A stretch of DNA of 25,262 nucleotides from a virus, in IMG/VR virus record IMGVR_UViG_3300042874_000675, positions 1 to 25,262 of that record; one strand, given 5' to 3'. Each line of letters begins with the position of its first letter. Positions within the stretch are counted from its first letter, which is position 1. This document shows positions 9,684 through 23,817 of this stretch, one piece after another. The notes beneath the pieces were generated by a model. That model did not search any database and was not told the DNA's origin. It was given only the letters and a program-made list of their open reading frames with translations. The position numbers and the translations under genes were made by a program.

Positions 9684-9881
9684 ATGAAAATAAATTTTGT
9701 TTCAGCACTGATAATTATTTTATTGGGTATTCCACTTTCAAATTTTATCATTGAGCATTCTTTTGGGCATTTATCTCCTAATTATTGGGCTATACAGGGA
9801 CTGGTTTTTCTGTTAACCTATTTGTTTTGCCTTACAGTTTTAACATACTTGTTTTCGCTAATTCATAAATGGGGTCGCTAA
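9684..9881 (+). CDS. Small two-helix membrane protein, independently transcribed (moron-like)
   Basis: A 65-residue protein on the strand opposite to all surrounding tail genes. Two hydrophobic segments at about 3-24 (FVSALIIILLGIPLSNFII) and 35-60 (WAIQGLVFLLTYLFCLTVLTY) give a hairpin in the inner membrane, with a short loop containing EHSFGHLSP and a basic end (HKWGR). It has its own Bacteroidota promoter 20 bp upstream, so it may be expressed in the lysogen when the late genes are silent. This fits a moron, for example a superinfection-exclusion protein. Topology and size also fit a class II holin, but expression from a housekeeping-type promoter argues against that. The function is inferred. 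Confidence 0.6.
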   Translation: MKINFVSALIIILLGIPLSNFIIEHSFGHLSPNYWAIQGLVFLLTYLFCLTVLTYLFSLIHKWGR

Positions 9882-9903
9882 TTAATCGCATTTGGCCTGT
9901 TTG

Positions 9904-9973
9904 CTCTTCACTCTTCACTCTTCACTCTTCACTCTTCACTCTTCACTCTTCACTCTTCACTCTTCACTCTTCA
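9904..9973. repeat. Ten tandem copies of a 7-bp repeat (CTCTTCA / TGAAGAG)
   Basis: Ten exact head-to-tail copies of CTCTTCA fill 9904-9973. They lie between the end of the plus-strand membrane gene and the end of the minus-strand tail assembly reading frame. Read on the minus strand the unit is TGAAGAG. The first TGA is the stop codon of the frameshifted tail assembly protein, and because 7 is not a multiple of 3 the array gives stop codons in all three minus frames every 21 bp. Plus-strand open frames through the array are repeat artefacts. Copy number is likely to vary by slippage. Confidence 0.95.
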
Positions 9974-10165
9974 CTTATTCCCTTTTGCCTCCTGTTCTCT
10001 CAGCCATTTCAACTCTTTATATCGCATTGCCCACTCTTCATCGCTCAGGCTGTCCGGGTCGGGCAGGTGCAGATAATATCTGATCTGGGCATTTATTATC
10101 CGTACCCATTCCGTCTCTTTTAACTCGGCAGCCGTTATAAGTTTACCAGTTCGGCCTCTTTCACT
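9971..10165 (-). CDS. Frameshift (-1) extension of the tail assembly chaperone
   Basis: This frame is open on the minus strand from 10165 to a TGA at 9971. It encodes about 54 residues after the point where the chaperone frame stops (TAAELKETEWVRIINAQ..., with YYLHLPDPDSLSDEEWAMRY and a helical end). It lies in the -1 frame relative to the chaperone and has no ATG, GTG or TTG until well inside the conserved-looking part. In many tailed phages the gene before the tape measure is extended by a programmed frameshift (lambda G-GT, P2 E-E'). No classic slippery heptamer is visible in the overlap, so the exact site is unknown; an indel in the source sequence is the alternative. Confidence 0.6.
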   Translation of the reverse strand, partial: SERGRTGKLITAAELKETEWVRIINAQIRYYLHLPDPDSLSDEEWAMRYKELKWLREQEAKGNK

Positions 10166-13786: not shown

Positions 13787-14803
13787 TTATACTTTTGGGC
13801 TATAAACAGCACCCAGTGCTTTAGCACGAAAGGGTAGAGCCACAAATCGCTTTTGAAAGTTAATCACGTCGCCTTTCTGATCCGGATCGCTGTATTTTGC
13901 AAATACTTCAACAGAACCATCGGCGCGCATTACCTCGTCTTTGCTCCAGATTATAGAAGCAACGGTGTCGGTTGCGGCAGCTATAGCCTGAAAAGCTACT
14001 TTAGCGCCTGTGGTTGCGTTCCAACGAGGGGTTTGAGAGTTGGTAAAGTATTTCAAACCAAAGATGTTTCCGGAGGCAATAATGTCCTTATAAAGCTTCA
14101 TATCCTGCGCCATAAGGTCTGATTTGTGAAGCGGGTTAAGCATCAAAGCCAGCGACATAACATCAATATCCATCAAGTCAAACTTAGCCTGCAAGGCAAT
14201 TATATCTTCAAACAATAATTTGCGACGACCATTAACCAATTCACCGGTAGCAGTCAGCACAGGTGTGTATAAACCATCGGAATCAGGCGACCAAAAATGA
14301 GCCGCCAGTTGTATGGCGCCTTTGCGTAAAGTATTGCGGTGTCCTCTTACTACCGATTCCATCTTATTATAAGCAGCTTCCTTCATTTCTAAGTTCCGAA
14401 TAATGGTCGATTCCGTATCCAGAGTACGCAATACAATAGTTTTAGGAACGTCTGAGCGGGTAGCAGCAGCAATCGGATATACGGTGTTGTCAATTAATAG
14501 ATTTGGATCGGCTCCTGCTTCCGCTAAATTTAACGTATTATATTCAACCAACTCACTCATATCGCGGCTCCAAGCCAAAAAATCGTCTTTAGGATAAAAG
14601 CCTTCCATCAATATATCAGTCCATATTTCTTTAGAAATTCCTACACGTAGGATACCGGATGGCATTTTAACAAACGAGCTAATACTGCCCAATGCAATTG
14701 AAGCACCAATGGCAGGCAAGGCGGCTATATTCAAGGCCGTCATCATAACAAAAGCAATCAGCATGTTGAACATGAAATTGCCTAAATTGAATTGTTTTTT
14801 CAT
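13787..14803 (-). CDS. Major capsid protein
   Basis: A 338-residue protein next to the protease-scaffold gene, the usual place of the major capsid. The body contains ISKEIWTDILMEGFYPKDDFL (about residues 56-76), EYNTLNLAEAGADPNLLIDN (87-106) and TLRKGAIQLAAHFWSP (157-172), plus LPFRAKALGAVYSPKV at the end. This resembles Bacteroidota Mu-like capsids. The first 45 residues are strongly hydrophobic (FNMLIAFVMMTALNIAALPAIGASIALG), which is unusual for a soluble shell protein and may be removed by the prohead protease or bind the scaffold. Expression is probably high. A hairpin follows the stop codon. Confidence 0.85.
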   Translation of the reverse strand: MKKQFNLGNFMFNMLIAFVMMTALNIAALPAIGASIALGSISSFVKMPSGILRVGISKEIWTDILMEGFYPKDDFLAWSRDMSELVEYNTLNLAEAGADPNLLIDNTVYPIAAATRSDVPKTIVLRTLDTESTIIRNLEMKEAAYNKMESVVRGHRNTLRKGAIQLAAHFWSPDSDGLYTPVLTATGELVNGRRKLLFEDIIALQAKFDLMDIDVMSLALMLNPLHKSDLMAQDMKLYKDIIASGNIFGLKYFTNSQTPRWNATTGAKVAFQAIAAATDTVASIIWSKDEVMRADGSVEVFAKYSDPDQKGDVINFQKRFVALPFRAKALGAVYSPKV

Positions 14804-14824: not shown

Positions 14825-15298
14825 TTAATATTTAGATTTGTACGAAGCCTTGAGCGCAGCGTGCCCCTCAGGATCTTTTATAGCCATTTCGGCCAGTCCG
14901 GGCTGGTCTTCTTTGAGCCATTTCATATAATCCCAACCTTCGCGGTCGGCGGCCTGCTTGTTATTGCCAAAACCGCCTAATTTTGAACTGAAACTTGTGC
15001 TGCCGGGCAAAGTGTCTAAAATGTCTTTTGCCTGCTTATAATCAGCGATGGCAAGCTTTACATAAGCCTCTTTTTTGTCGGCTGTAATTTTACCCTCGCT
15101 CACTGCTAGGTTAACCAAATCAGTAGCTTGTTTGCTCCGATGATCCGAAAGTTCTTTTTCGGCTTTTTCCTTTTCCTTAATGGATCTTTCAGCCCTTGCG
15201 CTGAGTTCCATAATTGCGGCATTCAACTCGGTAATTTCCGGGTCTTTTGATACGCCAAGCGCTTTTGCAGCCTCGGCGGAAAGCATGATTTTTTCCAT
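14825..15298 (-). CDS. Predicted internal scaffold product of the protease gene
   Basis: An in-frame ATG at 15296-15298 (residue 158 of the protease gene) follows an A-rich stretch on the minus strand (AAACAAAAAAAACAAT), which is the usual Bacteroidota ribosome landing site. Initiation here would give a 157-residue protein, starting MEKIMLSAEAAKAL, with a coiled coil at its beginning and without the protease domain. In Mu the scaffold Z is made in the same way from within protease gene I. The product is inferred; it has not been distinguished from a simple scaffold domain of the full protein. Confidence 0.5.
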   Translation of the reverse strand: MEKIMLSAEAAKALGVSKDPEITELNAAIMELSARAERSIKEKEKAEKELSDHRSKQATDLVNLAVSEGKITADKKEAYVKLAIADYKQAKDILDTLPGSTSFSSKLGGFGNNKQAADREGWDYMKWLKEDQPGLAEMAIKDPEGHAALKASYKSKY

Positions 15299-15769
15299 AT
15301 TGTTTTTTTTGTTTAAAATACTCTCTATTGAGAGCGTGATTTCGTTTGTTGCTAAAGCCTTTCCATTTTTCGCGTACAATCTGAGCGCTCCCTTATTACT
15401 TGGCACTGCCACGGGCGAAGCTTCCAACAGCTCCCACCTGGTTATTACTACCTGATAACCCAGCACAGGCAACTCGCGCATTTCGGCATCAAGAATGATC
15501 AGTCCCATCGAAGCGCCTTTAATGAATCCTCGCTCCACTTTTCCACTGATTTTTAAAGCTTCCGCATCGTCCGCATCAAATTCCGCTTCAGCTTGTAACG
15601 TACTCCCTTCTATTGTCAAATTATGCCAGCGTCCAATTACGCCACGCTCATCGTGCGAATTAAGCATGACCGGATTAGCGCGAAATCGATCAAATTCGCC
15701 ACCTGAATTAAGTATAAGAAAGCCGTGTGAGGTGAGCACAGATTCGTCGTTAAGTATAAATACAGCCAT
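14825..15769 (-). CDS. Prohead protease with C-terminal scaffold
   Basis: A 314-residue protein starting at the ATG at 15769; an upstream TTG two codons earlier is less likely. Residues about 5-130 look like an S78 / HK97-type prohead protease: NSHDERGVIGRW with His39, then VERGFIKGASMGLI with Ser87, and RWELLEASPVAVPSN where an acidic residue (Glu114-Glu116) completes the site. Residues about 155-314 are helical, with a coiled coil at about 180-215 (SARAERSIKEKEKAEKEL), as expected for an attached scaffold. It cleaves scaffold and capsid N-termini during head maturation. This is the first gene of the leftward late operon, with a promoter 20 bp before it. Confidence 0.88.
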   Translation of the reverse strand: MAVFILNDESVLTSHGFLILNSGGEFDRFRANPVMLNSHDERGVIGRWHNLTIEGSTLQAEAEFDADDAEALKISGKVERGFIKGASMGLIILDAEMRELPVLGYQVVITRWELLEASPVAVPSNKGALRLYAKNGKALATNEITLSIESILNKKNNMEKIMLSAEAAKALGVSKDPEITELNAAIMELSARAERSIKEKEKAEKELSDHRSKQATDLVNLAVSEGKITADKKEAYVKLAIADYKQAKDILDTLPGSTSFSSKLGGFGNNKQAADREGWDYMKWLKEDQPGLAEMAIKDPEGHAALKASYKSKY

Positions 15770-15788
15770 TAGCAATTGTTTTAGAAAG

Positions 15789-15820
15789 CAAACTTACTTC
15801 ACGCGATAGAACTGTACAAA
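15789..15820 (-). promoter_or_regulatory. Promoter of the leftward late operon
   Basis: On the minus strand TTTG (15820-15817) is followed by 20 bp and TAAGTTTG (15796-15789), a full match to the Bacteroidota consensus TAnnTTTG with its TTG at -33. Transcription would begin near 15783, about 14 nt before the protease ATG. The element drives the 15.7-kb head, lysis and tail operon. A consensus promoter here implies repression in the lysogen, or a need for an activator at the neighbouring inverted repeat. Confidence 0.65.
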
Positions 15821-15833
15821 TAACTGTATATGT

Positions 15834-15853
15834 GTTAGATGGAAGTGTCTAAC
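15834..15853. promoter_or_regulatory. Inverted repeat operator midway between the divergent promoters
   Basis: GTTAGA (15834-15839) and TCTAAC (15848-15853) form an inverted repeat with an 8-bp spacer. A further half-site TTAGAT at 15856-15861 repeats the first (TTAGAT at 15835-15840) at 21 bp, two helical turns. The dyad centre (15843.5) is exactly 51 bp from the middle of the leftward -7 element and 51 bp from the middle of the rightward -7-like element. It is probably bound by a dimeric regulator of both late operons; which protein binds is unknown. Confidence 0.55.
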
Positions 15854-15890
15854 TCTTAGATAGAAATTATTTTTCTGACAGTTTTTGGAT

Positions 15891-15898
15891 GACTTTTG
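15891..15898 (+). promoter_or_regulatory. Probable weak -7 element of the rightward head operon
   Basis: GACTTTTG at 15891-15898 matches TAnnTTTG in 7 of the 8 positions, with G instead of the first T. No clear TTG is found about 20 bp upstream; the place holds TTAT. The element lies 18 bp before the small terminase ATG. A poor -33 box and a nearby inverted repeat suggest dependence on an activator. Confidence 0.4.
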
Positions 15899-15916
15899 TC
15901 TAAAAGATTCCTAAAT

Positions 15917-16393
15917 ATGGCCAAACAAACTAAACAAGGGAAGGTACAGCCGCGCGATCCTGAAAAATATGAATACGCCTACCTTCTATATATGCAAGGG
16001 GTGTTGCAAACCGATATATGCAATCGCATTAAAGTGTCGCCGCCAACACTTCAAAGCTGGAAAGAATCGGGCGGCTGGGAACACAAACGGGCAAGCCGTA
16101 CTATCAGCATCGACGACCTGGTTCAAAAGGCGCTTAAAATGATTTCCGATATGCTCGACAATAAAGAACATTTTAGTGCCGACGCATTCGCTAAGGCCGT
16201 CTCGCAGCTTAAAACCCTGAAAACCCACAATACGGTTGATGATGATATCAATACATTTATGGACTTTCAGGATTATATTATACGCGAACGCGCCAGTAAT
16301 AAGCAGGTAACTGACGAATTTATTAAGCTTGTTTCTCGCTTTCACGACTCTTACATCCAATATCGCTTAGCCAATGGCAAATTTTCGAACTAA
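15917..16393 (+). CDS. Small terminase subunit (terS)
   Basis: A 158-residue protein, taking the ATG at 15917 rather than a TTG seven codons upstream. Residues about 14-50 contain a helix-turn-helix: YAYLLYMQGVLQTDICNRIKVSPPTLQSWKESGGW, the pattern of HTH terminase small subunits ('q..ia..lgvs..tv..W...g.W'). The rest is helical and ends in a segment near DEFIKLVSRFHDSYIQYRLANG. It binds phage DNA and recruits the large subunit to the prohead. It is the first gene of the rightward operon and overlaps terL by 20 bp. Confidence 0.8.
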   Translation: MAKQTKQGKVQPRDPEKYEYAYLLYMQGVLQTDICNRIKVSPPTLQSWKESGGWEHKRASRTISIDDLVQKALKMISDMLDNKEHFSADAFAKAVSQLKTLKTHNTVDDDINTFMDFQDYIIRERASNKQVTDEFIKLVSRFHDSYIQYRLANGKFSN

Positions 16394-17885
16394 TAAAGAG
16401 CTATGGATAAGATGGGTTGAACGCATCCGATGGATTAATTCAAACGATTTTTCATTCCCGGAAGCGGAACAAGATAAAACACAACGTATCGCACGCGCCA
16501 AGAAAGAGTACGCTTTTTTCGTCGAAACCTATTTCCCTCACTTAGCATCAAAGAAATGTGGCACGTTCCAACTGGATGCTGCAGACTACCTATTGAAACA
16601 TGACCATACAAAAGCGCTCTTTGAGTGGGCGCGCGGCCATGCAAAAAGCACACACCTGAGTCTGTTGATTCCGCTTTGGTTGAAAATTCAAACGCCCGCC
16701 AAACTTTCGGTAATGGTTCTGGTAAGTAAGAGCGAAAATATGGCCGTAAGGCTTCTGAGCGATCTGCAAGCAGAGCTGCAATACAATGGTCCTTTTATTA
16801 AAGACTTTGGAAACCAAGTAAAAACCGGATCCTGGACCGAAGGCGAATTCCACACTTCCGATGGATGCCTGTTTGTAGCACTTGGACGCGGACAGAGCCC
16901 ACGCGGCTTAAAAGATCGTGGCAAAAGACCTGATTATATAGTAATAGACGATATTGACGATGACGAACTGATCCGCAATCCCCGCCGTGTAAGCGATGTA
17001 CTAGAATGGGCTTTAACTGCCCTTGCCGGGACTATGGCCATGGGACGCGGGCGGTTCGTTATGGTCGGTAATCGGATCGGAAAAAATAGCGTGCTGAGCC
17101 GCTTTGCCGAACTTCCCGGTATTTATCACACCATTGTAAATGCGCTCAACAAAAAAGGACTCCCTAGTTGGAGCGAAAATTACAGCGCAGACGAAATCAA
17201 AAAAATGCGCGATTTTATTGGCGAACGACGGTTTCAAAAAGAGTATATGAACAACCCAATTAACGAAGGAGCTGTTTTTCAACGAAAACATATCCTTTAT
17301 GGAAAAATGCTCGATTTGAAGTTTTATAAATCGTTGATATGCTATACAGACCCTTCATTCAAAAATTCAACTACAGCAGACTACAAAGCAACTGTGTTGG
17401 TTGGTAAAACAGCAACCGGCGAATTTCATGTTCTCAAAGCTTTTGTTGATCAAACTTCTGTAACCACCATGGTATCGTGGCACTACCTAATTATGGATTA
17501 CATTGCCGGACGGGTACCAACACTCTACTATATGGAGGCCAATTTTATGCAGGATTTGCTCTTGGACGAATTTAAGACGGTTGGAAATATTGTCGGCCAT
17601 CAAATCCCAATACGTGGCGATCAAAGATCTAAGCCGGATAAATTTGCCAGGATTGAGGCAATGTCGCCTCTTTTTGAACGCGCTCTTGTTTGGCTTAATG
17701 AAAAAGAGAAAGAAAGCCCCGGAATGATGGCTTTAGTCGATCAGCTTCTTATGTTCGAAAAAGGAAGCAAATCGCACGACGACGCTCCCGATGCCCTTGA
17801 GGGTGCCGTTTGGCTGCTGAGTAAACGATCACGTGGCGCCGATGCTCCTTACAGATTAGGCATAAGAGAATCACGAAAATATTAA
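16374..17885 (+). CDS. Large terminase subunit (terL)
   Basis: A 503-residue DNA-packaging motor with an N-terminal ATPase and a C-terminal nuclease. The Walker A-like motif is ARGHAKST at 86-93, lacking the first Gly of the classic P-loop, as in many Mu-type terminases. The Walker B is YIVIDD at 188-193 followed by DIDDDE. The RNase H-like nuclease contributes YTDPSF (Asp326), YYMEAN (Glu388) and DDAPDALEGAVWLL (Asp469, Asp470, Asp473). Length is typical of Mu gp28-like enzymes (about 500-550). It cuts concatemeric or integrated DNA and pumps it into the prohead. A short gap leads to the next gene. Confidence 0.95.
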   Translation: MANFRTNKELWIRWVERIRWINSNDFSFPEAEQDKTQRIARAKKEYAFFVETYFPHLASKKCGTFQLDAADYLLKHDHTKALFEWARGHAKSTHLSLLIPLWLKIQTPAKLSVMVLVSKSENMAVRLLSDLQAELQYNGPFIKDFGNQVKTGSWTEGEFHTSDGCLFVALGRGQSPRGLKDRGKRPDYIVIDDIDDDELIRNPRRVSDVLEWALTALAGTMAMGRGRFVMVGNRIGKNSVLSRFAELPGIYHTIVNALNKKGLPSWSENYSADEIKKMRDFIGERRFQKEYMNNPINEGAVFQRKHILYGKMLDLKFYKSLICYTDPSFKNSTTADYKATVLVGKTATGEFHVLKAFVDQTSVTTMVSWHYLIMDYIAGRVPTLYYMEANFMQDLLLDEFKTVGNIVGHQIPIRGDQRSKPDKFARIEAMSPLFERALVWLNEKEKESPGMMALVDQLLMFEKGSKSHDDAPDALEGAVWLLSKRSRGADAPYRLGIRESRKY

Positions 17886-21779: not shown

Positions 21780-22273
21780 TAAACGACATTTTAACAGCCA
21801 TTATGGAACGGCTCGCTGAAAAAGAGCCTAACCTGAAATACTTAGACGAAGACTACGGGCAACTCAGCTATTATCAGGAAAACGTCCCTGTAAAATTCCC
21901 ATGTGCGCTGCTGGAGCTGCAACAGACCAGCTGGAAAAACCAATCGCAAAAAGCACAAGACGGTGTTTTAAATATTAGTATTCGTGTTGCCGATCTAAAG
22001 CTGTCCAATACCAACTACAAAGCACCAACCACTCAAAAAACGAAGGCAGCCGCCATTTGGATTGTTATTGAAAACATCCATAAAGCACTGCATGGATGGA
22101 GACCTTTAGCAAATCCGGAATTTGGAACCCTTACTCGAATCTCTACCTCCCGCGTGAAACGCGACGACGGCATCCGCGAATTTGAATTGGTATATAGTTC
22201 GCTTTGTACCGATGCAAGCGCTATCAATCAACAATTCGGAACTGCCGACGACATGATTATATCGGTGTATTGA
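21776..22273 (+). CDS. Mu gp37-like protein, probable tail terminator
   Basis: A 165-residue protein. The N-terminus INDILTAIMERLAEKEPNLKYLDEDYGQL is helical, followed by VKFPCALLELQQTSWKNQSQ, LNISIRVADLK, a middle helix (AAAIWIVIENIHKALHGW, about residues 90-107) and RDDGIREFELVYSSLCTDAS. This plan fits Mu gp37 and other minor tail or tail terminator proteins that cap the tube and bind the head. It is the last gene of the rightward operon. It converges on the 96-residue gene, with which it shares 17 bp of opposite strand. Confidence 0.65.
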   Translation: MINDILTAIMERLAEKEPNLKYLDEDYGQLSYYQENVPVKFPCALLELQQTSWKNQSQKAQDGVLNISIRVADLKLSNTNYKAPTTQKTKAAAIWIVIENIHKALHGWRPLANPEFGTLTRISTSRVKRDDGIREFELVYSSLCTDASAINQQFGTADDMIISVY

Positions 22274-22547
22274 AAATGCTTAATTGCTTGATCCCCTGAT
22301 CCCCTGATCCCTTGATCCCCTGATCCCCTGATCCCTTGACCCCCTGATCCCTTGCAGCGATATTTTTGAGCTCTTTGGCTACGGGCGTTCCAAGATAGAT
22401 GTAAAGCGTTGCTATGGATATATGAAACTGGGGGGAAATGTAGGTTCGATAAATGTAGGCGGTAGATACTCCCGGAAGCCGCTGCTTCTGATAAACTTCA
22501 CAAACACGTTGCATCTGGAGTAACTTGTTTTTTCGGTTGTAGGCCAT
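22257..22547 (-). CDS. Possible small DNA-binding protein with repeat-encoded tail
   Basis: A 96-residue protein starting at the ATG at 22547; an earlier in-frame ATG at 22652 overlaps the terminator and is not used here. Residues 1-64 are basic (AYNRKNKLLQMQRVCEVYQKQ), then VSTAYIYRTYISPQFHISIATLYIYLG reads like a helix-turn-helix. Residues about 68-88 are DQGVKGSG-type units of 8 residues encoded by the tandem DNA repeat. I associate this kind of protein with Bacteroidota phages and mobile elements, but the function is unknown. It sits after the terminator, where a middle or late regulator is possible. The stop lies inside the end of the head operon on the other strand. Confidence 0.55.
   Translation of the reverse strand: MAYNRKNKLLQMQRVCEVYQKQRLPGVSTAYIYRTYISPQFHISIATLYIYLGTPVAKELKNIAARDQGVKGSGDQGIKGSGDQGIKQLSIFNTPI
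22287..22350. repeat. Eight tandem copies of an 8-bp repeat containing GATC
   Basis: Units CCTGATCC or CTTGATCC repeat eight times at 8-bp spacing, with a higher order of 24 bp (one CTT unit then two CCT units). Seven units contain GATC and one has GACC. The array lies at the convergent end of the head operon and is translated as 8-residue repeats in the minus-strand gene. Copy number is probably variable. Confidence 0.95.
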
Positions 22548-22598
22548 AGTACAAAAATAACAAACAAAACAAATTAATCTACACCGAGTTTTTAACAC

Positions 22599-22629
22599 AA
22601 AAAAAAACACCTGTGCAGGTGTTTTTTTT
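22599..22629. terminator. Bidirectional rho-independent terminator
   Basis: AAAAAAAAA, then the inverted repeat ACACCTG / CAGGTGT around TG, then TTTTTTTT. With an A run on one side and a T run on the other it acts in both directions. On the minus strand it ends the early operon 23 bp after the DnaA-like gene. On the plus strand it would stop read-through from the head operon. Confidence 0.9.
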
Positions 22630-22652
22630 CGAATCTCAAAAATATTTAGCAA

Positions 22653-23129
22653 TTATACCTGTTTTTCTGCCACGATTAGTCTGGCTAATTTTAAAATTTT
22701 TAGCTTTAAATCCGGATAGATATCAATTAGGTTTTCGATGGTATTTCGGCTATGCATCACCGTTGCGTGATTTTTATGAAATACGCCTCCAATGGCACTA
22801 AAAACATTGTTAGGATTTATCGTCAGAAAGTAAATAATCATCTGCCGCGCCATTACAATTTCTCTCTTCCGGCTTTTTGAAAACACCATTTCAACTGTTA
22901 AGCCCGTTTCGCGCAGAACAACGCTTATTATTTGCCAATAGACTGCTTCTTCTAATGATCCACGTAACGTTTCATCCGGAATACGAGTTCTGCGCCGGTT
23001 ACTTGCTTCCTCTGCATGGCTTATATTATACAAATCAAGCAGCAAATAAAAGGCCTCTTTAAAGCCCAAAGGGTTTCTCTTATCAATATTAAGAATATTC
23101 ACCAATTCTTTTATTTTCAGTTGTTCCAT
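22653..23129 (-). CDS. Free-standing DnaA domain IV-like DNA-binding protein
   Basis: A 158-residue protein. Residues about 64-155 resemble DnaA domain IV: VYWQIISVVLRETGLTVEMVFSKSRKREIVMARQMIIYFL (64-102), then FSAIGGVFHKNHATVMHSRNTIENL (110-134). The KNHATVMHS stretch corresponds to the DHTTVLHA signature that reads the DnaA box, and the arginine-rich region fits its basic loop. No AAA+ ATPase domain is present. It is the last gene of the early operon, before the terminator. It could be a transcription factor or a replication partner. The N-terminal 60 residues are helical and unassigned. Confidence 0.75.
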   Translation of the reverse strand: MEQLKIKELVNILNIDKRNPLGFKEAFYLLLDLYNISHAEEASNRRRTRIPDETLRGSLEEAVYWQIISVVLRETGLTVEMVFSKSRKREIVMARQMIIYFLTINPNNVFSAIGGVFHKNHATVMHSRNTIENLIDIYPDLKLKILKLARLIVAEKQV

Positions 23130-23536
23130 AATTCGCTTTGCAAATAGGTTTCTGCATATTTTTTATATACTCCGCTCTGAATGCTTTTTTCGTAAATAGA
23201 AATAAATTGATAACACTTTATTTGCTCTATCTTCGAAATACGGCTCCACTTGGCTAGCGATTTCTTTTTGCTCGACCGCACTTTTTCGTTATACCTACTC
23301 CAAAACATCTCAAATGTAATATCCGTTTTTAGCTCGTAAAATTTGATTGCCGGGTTATCTTTGAGCAATTTTTCAGCCTCCAGCAATTCGCGCGGAAAAT
23401 TTTTTAATATCCACACTTGCTGCTTTTCACTCAACAGAGCTCTACTGCTGTCAAACCCCTGTAGTAGATCCAAATCATTGTAAACAAACTCTACCTCGCC
23501 TTCAAACGAAGGCGAGGTCATCAAATAGGTTTTCAT
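23117..23536 (-). CDS. Early-region protein of unknown function
   Basis: A 139-residue protein, starting at the ATG at 23536 that overlaps the previous stop (ATGA); a longer reading from 23608 is not supported. The first part is KTYLMTSPSFEGEVEFVYNDLDLLQGFD, then the region SEKQQVWILKNFPRELLEAEKLLKDNPAI, then FEMFWSRYNEKVRSSKKKSLAKWSRISK, a basic stretch that could bind nucleic acid (about residues 79-106). It overlaps the DnaA-like gene by 13 bp. A GGAG motif lies upstream of the start. No known family is assigned. Confidence 0.7.
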   Translation of the reverse strand: MKTYLMTSPSFEGEVEFVYNDLDLLQGFDSSRALLSEKQQVWILKNFPRELLEAEKLLKDNPAIKFYELKTDITFEMFWSRYNEKVRSSKKKSLAKWSRISKIEQIKCYQFISIYEKSIQSGVYKKYAETYLQSELWNN

Positions 23537-23817
23537 AGTTTTATCTCCTTTAGTTCTAATGCCGCAGCCACCAAATATTCGAGGCGTGCGCCTTTGCTCA
23601 TATACCAATCCGGCTGAATGGCTATTGCCTCAGCATCTATCAAGGAGCGCAAGCATATAATGATAGCCTTAGTCCATTCCGTATTCTCAGGCACAATACG
23701 CATCGGATTAATCACATCATACCCTTGTGCTGTTAACAACTGCTCAGACTCCAAAAACTTCAACCACACATCGTGGCGGTTTAGTCCGCTTACTTTTCCT
23801 ATAATTTGTATTTTCAT
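23533..23817 (-). CDS. DUF4406-like protein (nucleoside deoxyribosyltransferase fold)
   Basis: A 94-residue protein, starting at the ATG at 23817 (KIQIIGKVSGL), which fits the family start; an ATG at 23859 would add 14 residues of poor match. The order IQIIGKVSGL, LTAQGYDVINPMRI, then ALI-like ICLRSLIDAEAIAIQPDWYMSKGARLEYLVAAALELK matches DUF4406, small relatives of nucleoside 2-deoxyribosyltransferases, with the 'D.......W..S.GA..E...A' signature. The substrate is unknown. It may alter nucleotide pools during early infection. Confidence 0.8.
   Translation of the reverse strand: MKIQIIGKVSGLNRHDVWLKFLESEQLLTAQGYDVINPMRIVPENTEWTKAIIICLRSLIDAEAIAIQPDWYMSKGARLEYLVAAALELKEIKL

Follow-up and report, generated by a model that had tools for sequence, protein, structure and literature searches.

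The intergenic region at positions 15770-15916 of a Mu-like phage of Bacteroidota was found to contain two outward-facing promoters separated by two tandem 21-bp dyads. In relatives of this phage the distance between the two -7 boxes followed the rule 88+21(n-1) bp, where n is the number of dyads, and the sequence of the dyads varied specifically with that of one small phage protein, here called reg96. The reading that we favour, and regard as probable, is that reg96 is an activator resembling Mu C and Mor, through which a single bidirectional promoter serves both late operons. The region would then be the single bidirectional late promoter of the phage, with promoters of the Bacteroidota primary sigma-factor type flanking an array of operator dyads, two in this case. 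Reg96, probably dimeric, would bind the dyads. On either side the array ends immediately upstream of the -33 region, and from there the bound protein would recruit RNA polymerase in both directions; the leftward protease-capsid-tail operon and the rightward terminase-portal operon would be switched on together. A Mu-like cascade, leading from early genes to activator to late genes, likely lies upstream of this switch. Binding, dimerisation, activation rather than repression and the transcription starts are what we infer from sequence comparison.

The window, which is the whole stretch of 25,262 bases analysed here, contains head genes of the Mu type in the corresponding gene order (Portal_Mu, 8.4e-63; Gp36, 5e-7; F-like, 7e-5). 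On these head genes and their order the phage would be classed as a Mu-like transposable phage, its transposase lying outside the window. The late gene blocks diverge from 15770-15916: protease, capsid and tail genes read leftward, with further minus-strand genes to the left of the capsid gene, and genes for small-terminase-like, large terminase, Gp36, Mu portal, F-like and neck-like proteins follow on the plus strand to the right (Table 1). An early block on the minus strand, from 25259 to 22257, encodes a DUF4406 protein, a DnaA-C-like protein and, last, the 96-residue reg96. The DnaA-C-like protein (22653-23129) consists of the DNA-binding C-terminal domain of DnaA alone (Bac_DnaA_C, 8.9e-16), and very few relatives encode one. 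Short repeats that translate as copies of LFTLHSS were observed at 9869-10083, in a gap at approximately 9684-10134; they adjoin a solitary plus-strand ORF within the leftward late block.

Table 1. Coordinates of the late control region, its flanking genes and the candidate regulator
Feature	Positions	Strand	Basis
Window, Mu-like phage of Bacteroidota	1-25,262		IMG/VR virus record IMGVR_UViG_3300042874_000675
Capsid gene	13787-14803	-	leftward block
Prohead protease / Mu I-like protein, leftward late operon gene 1	14825-15769	-	Pfam Peptidase_S78 7.7e-9, Mu-like_Pro 2.3e-5
Leftward -7 box, TAAGTTTG	15789-15796	-	sequence; distance to dyads fixed in relatives
Leftward -33 box, TTTG	15817-15820	-	sequence; TTTG with 19-21 bp spacer 4/4 in 101/142 relatives
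Putative operator dyad 1, ACTGTATAT-GTG-TTAGATGGA	15823-15843		centre 15833, 44 bp from leftward -7 outer base
Putative operator dyad 2, AGTGTCTAA-CTC-TTAGATAGA	15844-15864		centre 15854, 44 bp from rightward -7 outer base
Rightward -33 position, degenerate TTAT	15867-15870	+	20-bp spacer; full TTTG 4/4 in only 19/142 relatives
Rightward -7 box, GACTTTTG	15891-15898	+	sequence; distance fixed in relatives
Small-terminase-like DNA-binding protein, rightward late operon gene 1	15917-16393	+	PHROG 4151 'DNA binding protein' 1.8e-20; PHROG 2538 terminase small subunit 2.2e-5
Large terminase subunit (TerL), anchor for collecting relatives	16374-17885	+	PHROG 38 6.4e-79
Candidate regulator reg96, 96 aa, four-helix, last gene of leftward-reading early block	22257-22547	-	HMM matches, model, covariation
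-7-like box TATTTTTG just upstream of reg96 ATG	22552-22559	-	sequence; similar in some relatives, not all
Probable intrinsic terminator, ACACCTGCACAGGTGT then T-run	22598-22630	-	sequence

Both promoters described in an earlier note on this DNA were located as reported, the leftward as TTTG-N20-TAAGTTTG (15820-15789) and the rightward as GACTTTTG (15891-15898). The leftward promoter matched the Bacteroidota sigma-ABfr pattern TTTG-N19-21-TAnnTTTG in full. The rightward promoter did not; it reads GACTTTTG where TAnnTTTG would be expected, with five of the six fixed positions matched, and has TTAT at the -33 position. If the -7 box is taken to be centred at -7 (consensus from PMC7366714), the predicted transcription starts lie near 15785 (leftward) and 15902 (rightward), which would give leaders of approximately 16 nt on both sides and put the dyad centres near -47 (outermost) and -68 (next) of each start.

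The inverted repeat GTTAGA-N8-TCTAAC, on which the earlier proposal had centred, is present at 15834-15853 as the sole exact match in the window, and the half-site TTAGAT recurs at a distance of 21 bp (15835-15840 and 15856-15861). The repeat is not, however, the unit; it is made up of the right half of dyad 1 and the left half of dyad 2, the inner pair of half-sites in what are really two tandem 21-bp dyads with N3 centres (consensus AGTGTNYAA-N3-TTRNACACT). The symmetry about 15843.5, which is 51 bp from the centre of each -7 box, also held, since this point is the midpoint of the dyad pair. The distance between the -7 boxes is 109 bp (15898-15789), corresponding to n=2. Within the window the dyads were poorly symmetric (4/9 and 6/9) and the tandem-dyad score of 21, although the best, was barely above chance, other places reaching 20. 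The repeat was raised above chance because its geometry was conserved in relatives.

Relatives were collected by terminase searches, which yielded 80 genome loci and, in three scans, approximately 200 viral loci; single-protein searches with reg96 yielded few. Including the loci from the regulator searches and the copy of the window, the collection comprised 296 loci, some contigs being present twice, from which 171 unique divergent regions were extracted; the non-redundant set contained 140. Distances from (G/A)CAAA to TTTG(C/T) were counted in the non-redundant set with no assumption about dyads. The distance between the outward -7 boxes peaked sharply at 88 bp (64 regions), 109 bp (49 regions) and 130 bp (5 regions), compared to 0-4 regions at each neighbouring distance and a mean of 2.4 over all distances, and these peaks fitted the 88+21(n-1) rule. 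Extra peaks appeared at 60 and 81 bp, a shortening of 28 bp that the left -33 box would account for.

A strict layout was defined by two distances, both measured from the outer base of a -7 box: the dyad centres lie 44+21i bp from the left box, and the final centre lies 44 bp from the right one. It was fitted by 142 of the 171 regions, and by none of 855 shuffled sequences; the remaining 29 regions did not conform. The number of dyads was one in 90 regions, two in 46 and three in 6, an assignment that is approximate for weak arrays (L082 and L096 were scored as one-dyad in one scan and two-dyad in another). An independent scan of the two-dyad regions recovered the 44-bp distance on the left in 32 of 33 cases and on the right in 32 of 32, a period scan from 15 to 35 bp singled out 21 bp alone, and an unsupervised motif search of 88 regions recovered the same 21-bp dyad. 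In none of 70 loci was the phage's own dyad equalled elsewhere in the locus; therefore the site belongs to this promoter region. Close relatives had near-perfect tandem dyads, namely AGTGTGCAACCCTTGCACACT twice in L005, ACCTTTCAAGGGTTGAAAGGT twice in L006, and AGTGTCCAACCGTTGGACACT and TCCGTCCAACCCTTGGACGGT in L035. The conservation of half-sites and spacing in related phages, which the earlier note had put forward as a check, was borne out by the strict fits and by the peaks at 88, 109 and 130 bp, and both the anatomy and the spacing rule can be regarded as firm. Among the 142 fitting relatives the left promoters had a full -33 box more often than the right (Table 1), and the -7 box began with TA in 60 left and 18 right promoters.

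The choice between the N3 dyad and the N8 repeat as the unit was left undecided by the two-dyad phages, in which symmetry was 5.35/9 within dyads and 4.97/9 between them. The N3 dyad was taken as the unit because in the one-dyad phages, where N3-centred symmetry was 6.6/9 over 90 phages, it alone occupies the exact midpoint. The same comparative data already strongly contradict the idea that the region holds two independent promoters and a chance inverted repeat, which in one-dyad relatives would be an intrinsic terminator. This explanation would fit a window score only slightly above that of other places and the terminator-like appearance of one-dyad sites followed by T-runs (e.g. L080), but spacing in 21-bp multiples, tandem copies, best-in-locus uniqueness and the link to reg96 all argue against it, and arrays of two and three dyads are unlike terminators; we regard it as very improbable.

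Some groups of relatives had features of their own. The one-dyad sites of the gut relatives L080, L274, L279 and similar phages (CAAAAAGAGTGTAAAACTTTTACACTCTTTTTT) resemble intrinsic terminators and may carry that annotation; they sit exactly midway between two promoters. A marine/Flammeovirga-like group (L119, L129, L130, L104, L112-L114, L127 and L132) had the half-sites GTTGTGCAA or GTTGGNCAA, and its reg96 has diverged further (AYNRNNYLK..., with KNIK at the end). Six Bacteroidota-type phage contigs (L041, L052, L053, L062, L069 and L080) were found inside MAGs labelled Alphaproteobacteria, Patescibacteria, Clostridiaceae, Clostridium, Lachnospiraceae and Ruminococcus, and were probably mis-binned.

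Covariation between the half-sites and phage proteins was analysed in 70 non-redundant phages by partial Mantel tests, which shared ancestry can inflate. Half-site distance correlated with protein distance most strongly for reg96 (raw r of 0.60, compared to 0.36 for TerL, 0.39 for TerS and 0.32 for the protease), and when each protein was considered given the others the partial r was 0.51 for reg96 and 0.06, 0.08 and -0.17, respectively, for the rest. For reg96 the partial r was 0.39 in the two-dyad group and 0.51 in the one-dyad group, 0.50 when four more late proteins were controlled, and 0.55 when one early protein was controlled, compared to 0.23 for that early protein. In the subset of 21 phages with an early protein like that encoded at 23117-23608, the partial r was 0.34 for the early protein and 0.03 for reg96, so the assignment of reg96 is less secure for the close kin of the window.

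A profile search detected reg96 in 169 loci of the collection. When only loci extending 9.5 kb or more rightward from the TerL start were counted, 71 of the 81 that bear the site encode reg96; the mismatches were 10 loci with the site and no detected reg96, and 11 with reg96 and no site. L005 and L006 are 92% identical in TerL and 86% identical in reg96, yet their half-sites differ (AGTGTGCAA and ACCTTTCAA), and their reg96 proteins differ at several residues of the putative recognition helix (ISIKTLYVYL and ISLTTLYTYL). Residue-by-base covariation between reg96 and the site was weak, gave no clean code and extended beyond helix 3. Reg96 is, on these comparisons, a well-supported candidate for the partner of the dyads. 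Two of the proteins proposed earlier as regulators fared differently: the 96-residue protein emerged as the best candidate by occurrence and covariation, and the DnaA-like protein was rejected, being present in only 3 of the first 160 loci, all of them close relatives of the window. As to the wider proposal that one regulator controls both late operons from a single site, the symmetric control region, the conserved half-sites and spacing and the phage-encoded partner were upheld, but the single site was not, since the window has two tandem dyads and relatives have one, two or three.

Binding sites for small terminases often adjoin terminase genes, and the array could accordingly be a packaging site bound by that protein; alternatively, it could be bound by a host regulator or by an early protein such as that encoded at 23117-23608, which outperformed reg96 in the 21-phage subset. 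We consider binding by any of these other proteins unlikely. The small terminase was rejected as the binder, its partial correlation with the site being nil (0.08), and the position of the array relative to both -7 boxes is exact to the base pair, a precision that packaging would not need. Only 58 loci yielded the 23117-23608 protein, compared to 169 for reg96, and arms that vary between phages would be unexpected for a host factor. Furthermore, in hankyphage, a related phage, DNA is packaged by headful from the genome end (PMC12135933).

The AlphaFold2 model of reg96 was confident (mean pLDDT of 85.7) and consisted of four helices. The nearest solved fold was the DNA-binding I-beta subdomain of MuA (Z of 6.0, rmsd of 3.6 over 62 residues), a match that was not significant in Foldseek (E of 2.0); this resemblance is suggestive of an HTH-like fold. 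Searches of Pfam, PHROGs and NCBIfam with reg96 gave nothing usable, and an NCBIfam antiporter match (E of 0.002) was discarded, its score being far below the family cut-off. A PDB sequence search with the reg96 family profile gave no match, and BFVD gave one short uncharacterised protein that was 40% identical (E of 0.04). The TATTTTTG box is probably the promoter of reg96 itself, and the terminator listed in Table 1 probably separates reg96 from the upstream early genes. In the window the C-terminal tail of reg96 (22257-22340) is a short direct repeat, GDQGVKGSGDQGIKGSGDQGIK, that is missing in most relatives.

Activation by reg96 appears likelier than repression, because the operators lie upstream of the core promoters, the rightward promoter is weak and the position of the gene resembles that of a late regulator. 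Rightward promoters usually lacked the full -33/-7 consensus, which would be expected if an activator were needed. The counter-point is the leftward promoter of the window, which has a near-consensus sequence and could function unaided. The same anatomy and protein could therefore be read with reg96 as a repressor, or dual regulator, that holds both late operons off until it is removed: the leftward promoter would fire alone, operators beside both -33 boxes could obstruct polymerase, and variable arms that change with the protein resemble immunity-type evolution. In contrast to what repression would suggest, the dyads lie upstream of the core promoters instead of covering -33 to +1, the rightward promoter departs from consensus, as would suit an activator, and reg96 is encoded at the end of the early block, apart from the lysogeny end. 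In addition, the lysogeny repressor of hankyphage is a different, CI-like protein encoded at the genome end (PMC12135933). Repression by reg96 is for these reasons judged improbable, and the activator reading is retained.

The divergent arrangement of protease (minus strand) and small terminase (plus strand) is common to hankyphage (Bacteroides phage p00), Flavobacterium phage fF4, Peternella_1 and a P. gingivalis phage. A nucleotide search of the region against named phages gave only one weak match. fF4 has a relative of reg96 (35.6% identity, E of 9e-7) and the 88-bp spacing, but its central dyad is weak (3/9). The strict layout was not fitted by hankyphage, Peternella_1 or the P. gingivalis phage. 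In p00 the -7 boxes are 131 bp apart, and an 89-residue protein with its own terminator and promoter is encoded at the place matching reg96 (15178-15447), a counterpart by position; CTTTAAA recurs approximately 21 bp apart in the middle of the region (L297:8366-8496). By eye the p00 region looks like a variant that is one helical turn longer on each side, and it may represent the same switch in a distant form. In published work, only a CI-like repressor is described for hankyphage (PMC12135933) and only a repressor at ORF01 for fF4 (PMC7761591).

The open-access papers searched did not describe how late promoters are controlled in these phages; how the structural genes are switched on in the widespread Mu-like phages of Bacteroidota, hankyphage included, is undescribed there, lysogeny repressors alone being reported. 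The layout reaches beyond the window, as over a hundred relatives infecting Bacteroidota carry one to three copies of the site. We see about even chances for a broader proposal: in Mu-like phages across Bacteroidota, all late genes would be under the control of very small phage activators, members of a family not described before, which differ from one another in specificity and have no detectable relation to Mor/C. The activators would act at one bidirectional promoter, which would take up operator insertions between its halves only in whole double turns (21 bp), and specificity would have changed repeatedly together with the operators. Together, the spacing rule and the naming of a candidate protein open the late switch to direct testing, and the rule offers a route to annotating late promoters and regulators in unannotated phages. 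The matched protein-operator pairs form a natural set for studying the evolution of DNA-binding specificity, and a compact two-way promoter could serve Bacteroides genetics.

Promoters of the Bacteroidota primary sigma factor, sigma-ABfr, have TTTG at -33 and TAnnTTTG at -7 (PMC7366714). The leftward promoter of the window is fully like these, whereas the rightward promoter, which is alike at five of six positions of its -7 box, lacks the -33 box; both differ from the known promoters in being tied to operator dyads. In Mu there are four C-dependent late promoters, and Mor acts from a dyad at -43.5 on a promoter without a -35 box (PMC4287176). Several likenesses to Mu C/Mor were apparent: the phage is Mu-like, the gene for the activator, here the candidate reg96, lies between early and late genes, and the upstream core elements of the promoters are poor. 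A dyad also lies just upstream of the core promoter, the likeness being one of position only (-43.5 for Mor, near -47 for the outermost dyad here); with its centre 44 bp inward of the -7 outer base, it occupies the place expected of a Mor/C site, which overlaps the upstream core element or lies directly upstream of it. Unlike these activators, reg96 has no detectable sequence relation to either: no match naming Mor or C was found in Pfam, PHROG or NCBIfam, and comparison of the reg96 family with Mu C and Mor by hhalign gave a probability under 1%. The system would therefore appear to work like Mu C/Mor, yet it cannot be filed in the Mor/C family. The contrast with Mu that had been drawn earlier is fair in that one divergent region precedes both late blocks here; in Mu the late promoters are separate and each has its own dyad, whereas in these phages the single region carries one to three dyads in 21-bp steps.
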